The position numbers and the translations under genes were made by a program. 38,089 nucleotides of DNA, taken from Bacteroidota bacterium. GTDB lineage: Bacteria; Bacteroidota; Bacteroidia; Cytophagales; Cyclobacteriaceae. Below the pieces are notes generated by a model. It was not told the origin of the DNA. It worked only from the letters and a program-made list of their open reading frames with translations, and ran no database searches. Every line of letters begins with the position of its first letter. The stretch's first letter is position 1. The stretch covers positions 1 through 38,089 of the forward strand of contig JAQCJI010000018.1 of assembly GCA_027593175.1 (NCBI GenBank), given 5' to 3'. Positions 11,505 through 16,097 of the stretch are shown here, piece by piece.

Positions 11505-11534
11505 TTGCTTTTTAGCAGCCATACCCTATCTTTG
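11505..11534 (+). promoter_or_regulatory. Promoter of the his leader and operon
   Basis: TTG (11505-11507), a 19-base spacer and TATCTTTG (11527-11534) match the Bacteroidota -33/-7 consensus. Transcription would start near 11540, only a few bases before the leader-peptide ATG at 11543. Confidence 0.6.
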
Positions 11535-11542
11535 TTATCGAA

Positions 11543-11626
11543 ATGAAAAATAACGCAGCAATTCTTACTTTTTCTCTGCCTGCACAGGAGATCCATCTGC
11601 TGCATCATTTCCATCATTCCTCTTGA
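11543..11626 (+). CDS. Histidine operon leader peptide (HisL-like)
   Basis: A 27-codon reading frame, ATG 11543 to TGA 11624-11626, ends in the residues EIHLLHHFHHSS. Five of the last ten codons are His, all CAT, at 11594, 11603, 11606, 11612 and 11615. It begins a few bases after a good promoter and lies 102 bases before hisG, the first gene of a his operon. This is the hallmark of a ribosome-mediated attenuator leader: when charged tRNA-His is scarce, the ribosome stalls on these codons. It has no significant length or fold of its own, and the peptide product itself is probably irrelevant. His clustering by chance exactly in front of hisG is very unlikely. Confidence 0.82.
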   Translation: MKNNAAILTFSLPAQEIHLLHHFHHSS

Positions 11627-11660
11627 GAGGAAAAACTATACAGCCCTCCCGGTGAGGCTG
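11619..11660 (+). promoter_or_regulatory. Candidate his attenuator: four mutually exclusive pairing segments
   Basis: Four short segments can pair in alternative ways: (1) CCTCT 11619-11623, (2) AGAGG 11626-11630, (3) CCTC 11645-11648 and (4) GAGG 11654-11657. Pairing 1:2 makes a tight hairpin over the leader stop codon. Pairing 3:4 is part of a longer hairpin, CAGCC(C)TC / GAGGCTG at 11641-11660. Pairing 2:3 would exclude both. A ribosome stalled on the last His codons would cover segment 1 and free 2 to pair with 3. A ribosome at the stop codon would cover 1 and 2 and let 3:4 form. Hairpin 3:4 has no U-run after it, so how it would stop expression is unclear. Confidence 0.5.
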
Positions 11661-11728
11661 ATGATAGGTATTTGGCCATTCACCCCCCCTTCAATCAAAT
11701 CGTTTACCATCCCATTCAAAGTGTCCTT

Positions 11729-12589
11729 ATGGAACAGATTGTACGTATTGCCGTTCAGAAAAGCGGAAGACTCTCCGATGACTCACTCAGCCTAATCAAG
11801 GAATGTGGTATCAAATTTTACAACGGAACAGGTAAGCTCAAGTCTACCTCCACTAACTTCCCAGTAGAATTCCTATTTCTTCGAGACGATGATATCCCTG
11901 GATATGTAGCTGATGGGGTGGCAGATCTAGGTATCGTGGGGCAAAATGAGGTGGCCGAAAAAGATAAAGAAGTGCTTGTGCTCAAGAAACTTGGCTTTTC
12001 CAAATGTCGTCTTGCACTTGCTATACCCAAAGGAACTCCCTACGAAGGACTTCGCTATTTTGAAGGAAAAAGCATCGCCACTTCCTATCCAAAAATTCTG
12101 AAAGTCTACCTTCACACCCATCAGATCAACGCCGATATTCACGAGATCAGCGGCTCCGTTGAGATCGCTCCCAGCATTGGCCTTGCCGAGGGAATTTGTG
12201 ATATCGTCAGCTCGGGATCTACCCTGATGATGAATGGACTTAAGGAGGTAGAGGAGGTATTTGCCTCCGAAGCAGTCCTGATTGGCCATCCCCAGTTGAG
12301 CGAGTGGAAAAAAAGCATCGTAGATAAGCTACTCTTCCGAATCAATGCCGTGCAAATGGGCAAGAGTAATAAATATGTACTCATGAATGTGCCCAATGCT
12401 GCGCTGCCCAAGATCATATCCCTAATTCCTGGTATGCGTAGCCCTACCATCCTCCCCTTAGCCGAAGAAGGCTGGTCCTCGGTACACTCTGTATTGAGCG
12501 AAGATCAATTTTGGGAGAATATGGACGAACTCCGCGCTGCTGGCGCCGAGGGAATCCTAGTCGTTCCTATAGAGAAAATGGTTATTTAA
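11729..12589 (+). CDS. hisG: ATP phosphoribosyltransferase, long form
   Basis: A 286-aa HisG catalysing the first step of histidine synthesis, ATP + PRPP to N1-phosphoribosyl-ATP. The N-terminal RIAVQKSGRLSDDSLSLIKECGIKF and GVADLGIVGQNEVAE are the typical catalytic-domain segments. EGICDIVSSGSTLMMNGL (about 175-192) contains the PRPP-binding loop. The extra C-terminal part (about residues 215-286, ending in the AAGAEGILVVPIEKMV segment) is the ACT-like regulatory domain of the long form, which permits histidine feedback inhibition without HisZ. ATG 11729 was chosen because it matches the family N-terminus; the frame is open to 11672. It is the first structural gene after the leader peptide, 16 bases ahead of hisD. 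Confidence 0.96.
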   Translation: MEQIVRIAVQKSGRLSDDSLSLIKECGIKFYNGTGKLKSTSTNFPVEFLFLRDDDIPGYVADGVADLGIVGQNEVAEKDKEVLVLKKLGFSKCRLALAIPKGTPYEGLRYFEGKSIATSYPKILKVYLHTHQINADIHEISGSVEIAPSIGLAEGICDIVSSGSTLMMNGLKEVEEVFASEAVLIGHPQLSEWKKSIVDKLLFRINAVQMGKSNKYVLMNVPNAALPKIISLIPGMRSPTILPLAEEGWSSVHSVLSEDQFWENMDELRAAGAEGILVVPIEKMVI

Positions 12590-12605: not shown

Positions 12606-13901
12606 ATGAGACTACTCGTTAACCCCAGTCCTGAAAAATGGAAAAAACACTTGGCTCGCCCAGTGTTGGAGTTCAAAAAAATCAATCAAATCGTCAAACC
12701 CATCTTCGAAAAAGTGGAGACAAGTGGAGACAAAGCGCTGAAAAAATTTGCCAAAAAATTCGATCAGGTCCACTTGGATAGCCTCTTGATCAGCTCCGAA
12801 GAAATTCAGGCTGCTATTCTTCTGGTACCTGAGGACTTGAAAAAAGCCATCGCTATAGCCAAGTCAAATATTGAAAAATTTCACGCTGCTCAGGCTAATC
12901 CAGAACTGATCGTCGAAGTGATGCCTGGTGTCACCTGCAGTAGAAAAAGTGTACCCATCCGACGCATAGGGTTGTACATCCCCGGAGGAACGGCGCCCCT
13001 CTTTAGTACAGTTTTGATGCTGGGTGTACCAGCTGTCCTAGCCGGCTGCAAGGAAATCGTACTCTGTAGCCCTACCAACCGAGAGGGGAACATTCACCCA
13101 GCCATCCTCTACACTGCCCAATTGATCGGCATTACTAAAATAGTCAAAGTAGGAGGTGCACAAGCCATTGCTGCCCTTACCTTTGGAACAGAGTCTGTCC
13201 CACAAGTAGATAAAATCTTTGGTCCTGGCAACCAGTATGTGACCGCAGCAAAGCAGTTAGCTACCAAGTACGGTGTTGCCATCGATATGCCCGCAGGTCC
13301 CTCAGAAGTGCTCGTCTATGCCGACGAAACAGCTATCCCTGCCTTCGTTGCCGCCGACCTTCTCTCCCAAGCAGAGCATGGGGTGGATTCTCAGGTGATA
13401 TTGGTTTCTCCTTCAGAAGATTTCGCTAAAAAAGTTTTAGTCGAAATCGACCTACAGTTGGAAAGCCTTCCTCGGAAGAATATTGCTACCAAAGCGCTCC
13501 AAAACTCCTGTGCAGTAATCCTAGAGGATACCGACATTGTACTGGACTTGATCAACGATTATGCTCCCGAGCACCTTATCCTTGCTGCAGCCAAAGAGGA
13601 AGAGATTCTGGACAAGATTTACAATGTAGGTTCGGTTTTTATCGGCAACTTTACTCCTGAAGCCGCAGGAGATTATGCCTCTGGTACCAACCATACCCTT
13701 CCCACCTATGGCTATGCTCGCAACTACAGTGGGGTATCCTTGGACAGTTTTGTGAAAAAAATCACCTACCAAAAGATTACACCTAAAGGTCTTAAAGCCC
13801 TAGGTCCTGCAGTAGAGATCATGGCCGCCAACGAGCAGTTGGACGCACACAAGCAGGCGGTCACCCTCCGACTCAACTATCTAAAAACCAAGAAAAAATG
13901 A
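12606..13901 (+). CDS. hisD: Histidinol dehydrogenase
   Basis: A 431-aa zinc enzyme that oxidises L-histidinol to L-histidine in two NAD-dependent steps. Recognisable segments are IGLYIPGGTAPLFSTVLML (121-139) and VGGAQAIAALTFGT. FGPGNQYVTAAKQ and the signature around DMPAGPSEVLVYAD (227-240) follow. The zinc and catalytic residues fall in LLSQAEHGVDSQ (Gln255, His258), YAPEHLIL and GDYASGTNHTLPTYGYAR. Full family length (about 430 aa). Its stop codon overlaps the hisC start as ATGA (13898-13901), so the two are translationally coupled. Confidence 0.97.
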   Translation: MRLLVNPSPEKWKKHLARPVLEFKKINQIVKPIFEKVETSGDKALKKFAKKFDQVHLDSLLISSEEIQAAILLVPEDLKKAIAIAKSNIEKFHAAQANPELIVEVMPGVTCSRKSVPIRRIGLYIPGGTAPLFSTVLMLGVPAVLAGCKEIVLCSPTNREGNIHPAILYTAQLIGITKIVKVGGAQAIAALTFGTESVPQVDKIFGPGNQYVTAAKQLATKYGVAIDMPAGPSEVLVYADETAIPAFVAADLLSQAEHGVDSQVILVSPSEDFAKKVLVEIDLQLESLPRKNIATKALQNSCAVILEDTDIVLDLINDYAPEHLILAAAKEEEILDKIYNVGSVFIGNFTPEAAGDYASGTNHTLPTYGYARNYSGVSLDSFVKKITYQKITPKGLKALGPAVEIMAANEQLDAHKQAVTLRLNYLKTKKK

Positions 13902-14953
13902 AGGTTGACCTAGCTTCTCTCCTCCGTCCTCACCTACTGAAGCTGAAGCCGTATACCTCTGCCCGCGATGAATATAGCGGTTCGGAAGGGGTGTTTTTAG
14001 ATGCCAACGAAAACCCTTTTGGCTCCATCACCCAAGAGGACCACAACCGCTACCCTGACCCTTACCAAAGTGTCTTGAAAGAGGGAATTGCAAAGATTAA
14101 AGGTTGTAATCCCTCCCAGATTTTCTTAGGTAATGGATCGGATGAGGCCATTGACCTGCTCTTTCGTGCCTTCTGCAATCCGGGGAAGGACAATGTAATT
14201 CTTCTACCTCCCACTTACGGTATGTACGAGGTGAGCGCCTCCAGCAACGATGTGGAGGTTCGAAATATCCCCCTCACCCCTTCCTTCCAGTTGGAACCAG
14301 AAAAAATCCTTGCAGCAGCAGATGGCCAGTCTAAAATTTTATTTGTCTGCTCCCCTAATAATCCATCTGGAAACCAGATGAAGCGAGACGATATCTATTT
14401 TCTTTTGGACCGCTTTCCGGGTATTGTGGTGGTAGACGAAGCCTACATCGATTTTAGCTCAGAACCAAGCCTTATCCAAGCGCTAGACAAGTACCCCAAC
14501 TTGCTGGTAATGCAAACTTTCTCCAAAGCCTGGGGATTGGCCTCCCTTCGCTTAGGGATGGCTTTCAGTAGTCCCGAACTGATTGGTATACTCAATCAAA
14601 TCAAACCACCCTACAACATTTCAGGATTGACCCAAGACACGGTTCTTGCAGCCCTGCCAAACAAGGGGAAGGTGGAGAAGTTTATCCAAAAAATTCTGGA
14701 GGAACGTACCTTCCTGCATCAGGAACTCGAAAAGATGCCTTACATTTTGCACATTCATCCCTCGGATGCCAACTTCCTCTTAGTCCAGGTACCAGATGCA
14801 AATCGCTTCTACAAAGGCTTGATTGAGGAAAAAGTAATCGTGCGCAACCGCTCTACGGTCCTGCACTGCGAAGGCTGTCTGAGGATTACGGTAGGAACGC
14901 GGGAAGAAACCCATGCCTTACTCCAAGCTTTCGAAAAAGTGGCGCACTCTTAA
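13898..14953 (+). CDS. hisC: Histidinol-phosphate aminotransferase
   Basis: A 351-aa fold-type I PLP aminotransferase that converts imidazole-acetol phosphate to histidinol phosphate. LDANENPFG (34-42) is the typical HisC substrate-loop motif and RYPDPYQ follows. [18 protein letters not shown] (Asp180) and [14 protein letters not shown] give the PLP lysine Lys210 and the phosphate-binding Arg218. The start overlaps hisD by four bases. The next gene, hisB, starts 46 bases after its stop. Confidence 0.96.
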
Positions 14954-14999: not shown

Positions 15000-16097
15000 A
15001 TGAAAAAGAAAGTGTTATTTATAGACCGAGATGGCACCATCATCAAGGAACCCCCCACAGATTTTCAAGTCGATAGCTTGGAGAAGTTGGAATTTATACC
15101 CAAAGCGATCTCCAACCTCCGGAAGCTAACCGAAAATTGCGACTACGAATTGGTGATGGTGACAAATCAGGATGGCTTGGGAACCGATTCCTTTCCAGAA
15201 AAAGACTTCTGGCCAGCACAATACAAGATGTTGAAAACGCTCGAACAGGAAAATATCCAATTTGCAGCAATCCACATCGACCGCAGTTTTGAGGAGGAGC
15301 AGGCGCCGACACGAAAGCCTAGAATAGGGATGCTAACCTCTTATTTTTCCGAAGACTATGACCTAAGCCAGTCCTTTGTGATCGGAGACCGCGCTACCGA
15401 TATACAGCTCGCGCAGAATTTGGGAACGAAATCGATTTTCTTCGGTGAATCACACTCTGAGGCAACATTCTGCTGCAAAGACTGGGACGAAATCTACACC
15501 TTCCTAGCTCTCCCTCCCCGTCAATCAGAGGTAAATCGAAAAACGGCAGAAACTGACATTTACATCAAACTCAATCTGGATGGAACAGGTGCTTGCGACA
15601 TCTCCACAGGTCTACACTTTTTTGACCACATGCTGGAGCAACTAGGCAAGCATGGCAGTACAGACTTGCGTATTCAGGTTAAAGGGGACCTCCATATCGA
15701 CGAGCACCACACCATCGAGGATACCGCCCTTGCATTGGGAGAAGCTTATGCAAAGGCCCTGGGGGATAAAAAGGGAATTTACCGCTATGGATTTCTCCTC
15801 CCCATGGACGATTCACTGGCCCAGGTGGCCCTAGACTTCGGAGGCAGGCCCTGGTTGGAATGGGATGCCCAATTCTCTCGAGAAAAAGTAGGCGACATGC
15901 CCACAGAGCTATTTTTTCATTTCTTCAAGTCCTTTTCGGATGCCGCGAAGTGCAATCTAAACATTTGTCTTACGGGTGACAACGAGCACCACAAGATCGA
16001 AGCCGCTTTCAAAGGATTGGCTCGAGCGATCAAGATGGCTGTGCTCCGTGAGGAGCGCAATTTAAAGCAGCTCCCTTCTACCAAAGGGATGCTTTGA
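15000..16097 (+). CDS. hisB: Bifunctional histidinol-phosphatase / imidazoleglycerol-phosphate dehydratase
   Basis: A 365-aa fusion. Residues 1 to about 165 form a HAD-type histidinol phosphatase with FIDRDGT (nucleophile Asp9, Asp11), [10 protein letters not shown] and [16 protein letters not shown]. Residues from about 175 onward form IGP dehydratase, with [26 protein letters not shown], the metal-binding [16 protein letters not shown], and [20 protein letters not shown] 15000 fits the family N-terminus; an upstream in-frame extension to 14913 would overlap hisC. This fused form is usual in enterobacteria and Bacteroidota. It is the last his gene here, because the next gene is on the other strand. 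The hisH, hisA, hisF and hisIE functions must be encoded elsewhere. Confidence 0.96.

Follow-up and report, generated by a model that had tools for sequence, protein, structure and literature searches.

The his operon of enterobacteria is controlled by an attenuator (Rfam family RF00514) in which a short leader with a run of His codons lies before hisG, a hairpin overlaps the end of the leader, and the outcome responds to charged His-tRNA. The locus reported here has the same short His-run leader before hisG and a hairpin overlapping the leader end, and we infer the same response to charged His-tRNA. It differs in that it has no U-run terminator and no supported 2:3 helix, and in that the leader starts near the end of the transcript. 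Older comparative papers on attenuation (Vitreschak 2004 and Lopatovskaya 2010) reportedly may mention Bacteroidetes. We claim no priority for a his leader in Bacteroidota; type B, as described below, is a leader variant without a terminator.

In Firmicutes, leaders with three to five His codons and no RF00514 match precede his operons (PMC9413887); these come from another phylum and carry terminator and antiterminator hairpins, unlike type B. Within the same phylum as our locus, F. psychrophilum gives strong indications that leader peptides attenuate its amino-acid operons, and it has a conserved element before hisG with no Rfam hit (PMC9723704). In B. thetaiotaomicron, short frames in long 5' UTRs are reminiscent of leader peptides (PMC7366714), and neither "histidine" nor "hisG" occurs in the main text of the report. 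Mycobacteria have cysteine-rich upstream small ORFs ahead of matching genes, proposed as an attenuator (PMC4633059). That case resembles ours as an amino-acid-rich short frame in a group rich in leaderless mRNAs, and differs from it in concerning cysteine genes and Actinobacteria. Leader genes close to gene starts have been surveyed, Bacteroidetes included (PMC4833913), and the text of an account of the his genes of the superphylum mentions attenuation once, for enterobacteria (PMC8305728). The control of amino-acid operons in Bacteroidota is little studied, and the his leader described here is widespread without an Rfam match.

The window analysed here is a stretch of 38,089 nucleotides (contig JAQCJI010000018.1 of assembly GCA_027593175.1) from a member of the Cyclobacteriaceae. 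Rfam gave no match in the window at the gathering score, none to RF00514 up to E = 10, and none in the his loci of seven relatives. After the leader, the genes follow in the order hisG, hisD, hisC and hisB, forming a hisGDCB operon (Table 1). The hisG ATG lies 102 nt past the leader stop; because the HisG proteins of relatives align from this ATG, the TTG at 11672 given as the start in the list of open reading frames was rejected as not being the conserved start. The listed hisB frame opens at 14913, and the protein sequence makes ATG 15000 the likely start. The operon runs up to a minus-strand ATP-grasp gene (16163 onward). In the same genome, hisA and hisF (and hisH by sequence) lie in a cluster of their own, some 8 kb away from trpE (G000:C30:34964-36505). 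No His-rich frame was found ahead of hisA in the 1.5 kb upstream in this genome, nor in any of eight genomes.

The original prediction placed an unannotated 27-codon frame with five His codons in its last ten directly behind a promoter and ahead of hisG. Such a frame is present at 11543-11626, where nothing is annotated. Its product, MKNNAAILTFSLPAQEIHLLHHFHHSS, is followed by TGA and has the C-terminus HLLHHFHHSS; when the 260-nt upstream region of the window itself was dinucleotide-shuffled 20,000 times, five His within eight residues appeared once. The promoter is of the Bacteroidota sigma-A type. Since the TAnnTTTG box of F. psychrophilum is reported to cover -12 to -5 (PMC9723704), transcription is predicted to start near 11539, about 4 nt ahead of the leader ATG. 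A sigma-70 scan of the window did not report the leader promoter, as expected because the promoter type of this phylum differs.

Table 1 Features of the hisG leader region and the hisGDCB operon in the window.
Feature	Position	Strand	Description
Promoter, Bacteroidota sigma-A type	11505..11534	+	TTG 11505-11507, 19-nt spacer, TATCTTTG 11527-11534
hisG leader peptide gene	11543..11626	+	27 codons and stop; conserved His run with free N-terminus
P1 hairpin	11617..11632	+	TTCCTC-TTGA-GAGGAA; stop codon TGA 11624-11626 in loop
P2, weak hairpin	11651..11684	+	GGTGAGGCTGA / TTGGCC-AT-TCACC; arms 11651-11661/11672-11684; no U-run behind
C-rich, G-poor stretch, candidate Rho-loading region	11669..11728	+	last 60 nt before hisG; C 35.0%, G 8.3%; composition only
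hisG, ATP phosphoribosyltransferase (long form)	11729..12589	+	PF01634, PF08029
hisD, histidinol dehydrogenase	12606..13901	+	PF00815
hisC, class I/II aminotransferase	13898..14953	+	PF00155; name from operon place
hisB, phosphatase and IGP dehydratase	15000..16097	+	PF00475, PF08645

The leader was then compared across relatives. HisG-based searches gave a leader in 48/58 relatives, 183/196 members of the family and 70/158 of the class, and a further scan yielded 80 named loci, largely of Algoriphagus, Belliella, Echinicola and other Cyclobacteriaceae. Duplicate upstream regions were collapsed into one. A His-dense short frame, defined as 6-50 codons opening with ATG and holding three or more His within eight residues, is present in 198 of the 224 distinct hisG upstream regions (at least four His in 175), as against five on the reverse strand of the same regions, with at least four His in none; dinucleotide shuffles gave 143/4480 with at least three His and 14/4480 with at least four. 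With GTG starts allowed, a leader is found in 108/109 loci with HisG at least 77% identical, 43/47 of other genera of the family, 51/57 of the rest of the class sample and 5/12 of other families of the order. While the His run is kept, the leader drifts freely in its N-terminal half. The motif joining the His run to P1 (CAYCAYNNNCAYCAYTCC..GAGGAA) occurs once in each of 18 of 34 genomes, always about 100 nt before hisG, and is absent from the other 16; the reversed control gave none. Judged by this comparison, the leader peptide gene is genuine and the predicted frame and His run are conserved throughout the family and in a large part of the class, and such short frames are missing from annotation in about 200 loci examined.

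Several loci stand outside these counts. L041, L043 and L045 were left out for having no hisG start by pattern (L041 has a His leader and a hairpin with a U-run), as were L261, L265, L267, L268, L270 and L281; the 60-nt regions L280 and L282 were unused, and L006 and L081 are cut by contig ends. Three groups were chosen from leaders ending in an HHS-type motif and split by downstream motifs, namely B1 (53 loci), B2 (36, with L175 counted here) and "other" (21), so that counts within them lean towards conservation owing to the selection; the main counts were also made over the full set of 108 loci that have a leader and a HisG at least 77% identical (the close loci). TTG-N19-TAnnTTTG is present in 84 of the 87 B1 and B2 loci measured. 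The promoter box lies 6-10 nt ahead of the leader ATG in 106/108 close loci and 2-10 nt from it in 21/32 loci of other genera. Among several ATGs of a frame tied in His count, the one nearest the box was preferred, a choice that favours short distances.

Across the class Bacteroidia, the leaders fall into two designs. In type A, a run such as HHHHH stands well ahead of the stop and is followed by a strong hairpin with a U-run before hisG; class loci examined here follow this design as a rule, and so do some genera of the family. In type B, to which the window belongs, the His codons stand at the leader end and are followed by P1 and by a C-rich, G-poor spacer without a terminator. Type labels come from a mechanical terminator scan corrected by eye: the scan found terminators in 37 of 51 class leaders, and eight of the 14 class loci scanned as terminator-less show a plain hairpin and U-run by eye; L210 and L224 were also set to type A. 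The last His lies two residues from the stop in 98/108 close loci and 20/32 loci of other genera, as against 1/37 terminator-bearing class loci, 28 of which have it 5-8 residues from the stop. By the position of its His run and by its missing terminator the window is not of type A, and it falls within the type B branch of a HisG tree. In this tree of 76 chosen rows, a quick one with an unsure root and with terminator-less class loci other than L217 (for example L273-L277) left out, 48 of 49 type B rows lie on one branch (SH-aLRT 95), and two state changes suffice, against a shuffled mean of 22.3. Four rows are odd or long-branched (L200, L204, L215 and L217). L200 lies outside the type B branch, and L217, from another family, falls inside it; either transfer or poor resolution could explain the places of these rows.

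The hairpin P1 joins the closing His-Ser-Ser codons of the leader to the bases past the stop. Its stem reaches 5 bp or more in 100/108 close loci, the window included, and at least two stop-codon bases lie inside the loop in 89/89 B1 and B2 loci. The stem is rebuilt with other bases in other genera (ATTCCTC/GAGGAAT, ATCTCTC/GAGAGAT, CATCTC/GAGATG, ATTGCT/AGCAAT, TGTGC/GCACA and others) and is absent in 7/31 of their loci. Covariation was assessed by swapping 3' flanks between loci and comparing native with permuted stem scores. In 32 terminator-less loci of other genera, the native score was 6.72 versus 4.62 for permuted flanks (sd 0.31), and in the 108 close loci 7.67 versus 7.05 (sd 0.09), with 0/5000 permutations as high in either set; as the sequences are related, these and the other shuffle and permutation values given here are not strict probabilities. 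No such signal was found in 33 terminator-bearing class loci (4.04 native, 4.08 permuted; 2742/5000), with L203, which has no clear terminator, grouped with type A in the covariation, folding and P1-tail counts, nor in 22 class and order loci filtered as terminator-less, several of them wrongly (329/5000). Folding z values of the P1 stretch are modest, at -1.21, -2.15 and -1.37 in type B, -0.05 in family type A and -1.10 in the class. Eight of the 108 close loci (L053, L055, L060, L070, L075, L150, L153 and L165) have a His-dense leader without P1, and in seven of them the leader no longer ends in HHxHHS; they may represent a third design or a decaying one.

The original prediction went further and proposed a four-segment switch with pairings 1:2, 2:3 and 3:4. 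All four strings are present, as CCTCT (11619-11623), AGAGG (11626-11630), CCTC (11645-11648) and GAGG (11654-11657), and segment 1 lies at the end of the leader, the stop codon falling between it and segment 2, so that the pair 1:2 is P1. The covariation test proposed with it favours 1:2, but segments 3 and 4 belong to the window alone: CCTC..GAGG occurs in 1/53 B1 rows (the window itself), 0/36 B2 rows and 0/21 other rows. The second hairpin that relatives conserve is not 3:4 but P2, for which arm permutation gave 18/5000 among 40 distinct B1 rows and 12/5000 among 30 distinct B2 rows. For segment 2, pairing with the native downstream RNA does not exceed pairing with the RNA of other species: in B1, B2 and other genera, respectively, 1699, 4995 and 3522 of 5000 permutations scored as well. 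In a helix scan without significance test, UCUUG of the leader end with CAGGG of the P2 loop came second in B1 (score 0.75), and GGAA of segment 2 with UUUU came fourth in B2; both were rejected, the former with 4286/5000 in partner permutation and the latter without support when the partners of segment 2 were permuted. In B2, a possible pairing of ATATCG behind P1 with CGTATAT ahead of hisG was also set aside, since it shows little covariation and is confounded with a promoter-like box. No antiterminator pairing (2:3) is supported by permutation among the sets tested, where a weak or long-range helix is possible. The four-segment reading is not supported on conservation, with 1:2 as the only conserved pair.

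Between leader and hisG, the window has no intrinsic terminator with a U-run, and no U-run follows the predicted segments, as had been noted. The RNA after P1 has a mean folding z of -0.18 in 40/53 B1 loci, -0.48 in the 36 B2 loci and -0.18 in 28 loci of other genera, compared with -4.58 in 10 family type A loci and -4.00 in 40/51 class loci of either type. In the 108 close loci the terminator scan gave 20 matches, all of them P1. A TTTT follows P1 closely in 26/53 B1 and 9/36 B2 loci, in which weak intrinsic termination at P1 may occur, and is absent in the window and behind 24/24 P1s of other genera. P1 as an intrinsic terminator was rejected, as at least five T in 8 nt are found in 18/53 B1 and 18/36 B2 loci but in 0/24 of other genera and not in the window. 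In all 108 close loci, C exceeds G before hisG. Over the last 60 nt, the C/G percentages are 27.5/11.1 in B1, 21.1/9.5 in B2 and 21.9/9.1 in other genera, against 18.3/18.8 and 19.1/15.7 in type A, where the stretch includes the terminator hairpin; behind the type A terminator the RNA also leans to C, but less so (19.1/13.1), and the difference shrinks over the last 25 nt (B2 18.8/9.8 versus class type A 15.4/9.8). Rho is encoded in 6/6 genomes searched, the window's own included (TIGR00767 over cut-off).

Other amino-acid leaders of the same or closely related genomes serve as internal controls. Frames with WWW precede trpE in 8/8 genomes (L283-L290), and the leader of the window's own genome (L290) reads MKTIANNYWWWHSKSFLGKAQKAVA; a hairpin with a U-run was found in the five of the eight regions examined over full length, the own genome included. 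Upstream of ilvD, four relatives (L293, L295, L296 and L297), and not the own genome, provided Val/Leu/Ile-rich leader frames (MYKVVILLSVIILIGF), in which the arrangement GTGAGGCAC / GTGCCTCAC / GAGGCAC-U-run forms an antiterminator-terminator pair; 4/12 ilvD-family loci (L294, L302-L304) have no such frame. No Phe leader, taken as three Phe in nine residues, was found ahead of pheA in 8/8 genomes. Since the trpE and ilvD leaders keep U-run terminators, the loss is specific to his. Going by the sequences compared, the absence of the terminator is real and common to the clade, and it is not genome-wide. The earlier suggestion that this lineage may use another stopping mechanism is hence too broad for the lineage as a whole, whereas Rho or a block on hisG translation stays live for his. 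The two designs offer a natural experiment, with a His-leader sensor common to both and the U-run terminator output absent in one clade.

Together, these results make leader-peptide control of some kind very likely. On balance, we favour the reading that the element is a histidine-responsive, ribosome-mediated attenuator of hisGDCB with a non-intrinsic readout, most likely Rho; for the Rho-type readout itself, we judge the chances to be close to even or just short of it. The comparison establishes the leader with its His run, the promoter spacing, P1 and P2, the lack of a U-run terminator and the excess of C over G; that histidine is what the element responds to, in which direction, what P1 does and that Rho acts here we infer. 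With a start about 4 nt before the leader ATG, a ribosome could load at once on the emerging RNA. When charged His-tRNA is scarce, the ribosome would stall on the terminal His codons and hisG would be expressed. When His is ample, the ribosome would get to the stop codon and depart, P1 would close over the leader end, and transcription would then end in the C-rich, G-poor spacer, short of hisG, in a factor-dependent manner. Rho is favoured as the factor because there is no U-run and little structure, the spacer has C over G, and Rho is encoded.

The precedent for this sign comes from E. coli tna (TnaC) and Salmonella mgtA (mgtL), where a ribosome stalled on the leader keeps Rho from acting downstream (PMC5021804), while Rho action at our locus is a proposal. 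mgtL responds to low proline (PMC5021804), and TnaC is described as stalling on free tryptophan, not on a missing tRNA. A stalled ribosome usually promotes Rho termination (PMC5021804). The right sign would require the stall to mask or refold the loading site, and that no alternative helix survived permutation counts against the Rho reading; moreover, P1 would stay free if the ribosome halted on the first His of HHxHH, which counts against a clear role for P1. Also against this reading stand the loci that keep a leader without P1, the modest folding of the P1 stretch, the lean to C behind type A terminators, and the placing of the promoter box near the leader ATG in only 21/32 loci of other genera. 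It is tempting to speculate, with somewhat less confidence, that a Bacteroidota clade has a his attenuator without an intrinsic terminator, in which Rho or hisG translation reads the departure of the ribosome. In this broader scheme, a leader near the transcript end would set the His codons against a hairpin with the stop in its loop, and a TAnnTTGY box in many relatives would give a leaderless hisG mRNA past the attenuator. Leader action without a terminator could be tested in cultured species of Algoriphagus, Belliella and Echinicola.

The main rival of the Rho-type attenuator is a translational readout, in which leader folding governs access to the hisG start, transcription is not stopped, and a stalled ribosome frees the start. 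Attenuators acting at the start site are known (PMC9413887), the window's type has no terminator, and B1 folds pair the HFH codons (TTTCCAT) with the hisG start (ATGGAA) around P1 and P2. This leader-start pairing beats its own shuffles (mean -6.65 versus -5.41), but the own hisG start pairs no better than the starts of other species (878/2000 permutations; 102 distinct rows), and the TTTCCAT:ATGGAA pairing was not adopted for this reason. In addition, His codons CAU pair trivially with AUG, and the mean start accessibility in a simple model (0.53-0.58) is nearly independent of ribosome position. We consider this explanation unlikely.

A classical four-segment attenuator, or the same with P2 as a U-run-free terminator hairpin, would fit the position of P1 and its stop-codon loop as a 1:2 hairpin. 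Compensating changes keep P2, relatives use intrinsic terminators, and the B1 helix scan placed UCUUG:CAGGG second; however, the CCTC/GAGG pair is private to the window, both segment 2 and UCUUG:CAGGG fail permutation, and there is neither excess structure after P1 nor a U-run, which leaves this scheme quite improbable. Finally, the leader might be translated without regulating anything here, as a relic of a type A attenuator or as an aid to ribosome loading. Gene-proximal leader frames occur often, and a role in helping translation has been put forward for them (PMC4833913), but the gap of about 100 nt to hisG is far from the 11-14 bp peak reported for Bacteroidetes (PMC4833913), and while the rest drifts, the His run with its position at the stop, P1 and the promoter spacing are kept. 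We give this possibility very little weight.

Two further observations concern relatives of the window. A box TAnnTTGY (TAACTTGC or TATATTGC within CTNARCGTANNTTGC) stands within the 12 nt ahead of the hisG ATG, exactly 4 nt before it, in many B1 and B2 relatives such as L012, L017, L021, L050 and L157. It is present in 36/53 B1, 21/36 B2 and 3/21 other type B rows, with 16/17,800 in shuffles, and in 0/46 other family loci, 0/57 class loci and 0/12 order loci; it is absent at 11717-11728 of the window and in the window's nearest small-genome relatives. The box matches the SM5 promoter motif reported for F. psychrophilum (PMC9723704) and, if it is a promoter, would yield a leaderless hisG mRNA that bypasses the leader. 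In family f58 of the class, three loci (L273-L275) have His leaders with no visible terminator and a hairpin in the stop region (ATCGCC..GGCGAT); with HisG about 50-54% identical, they may represent the type B design arisen independently.
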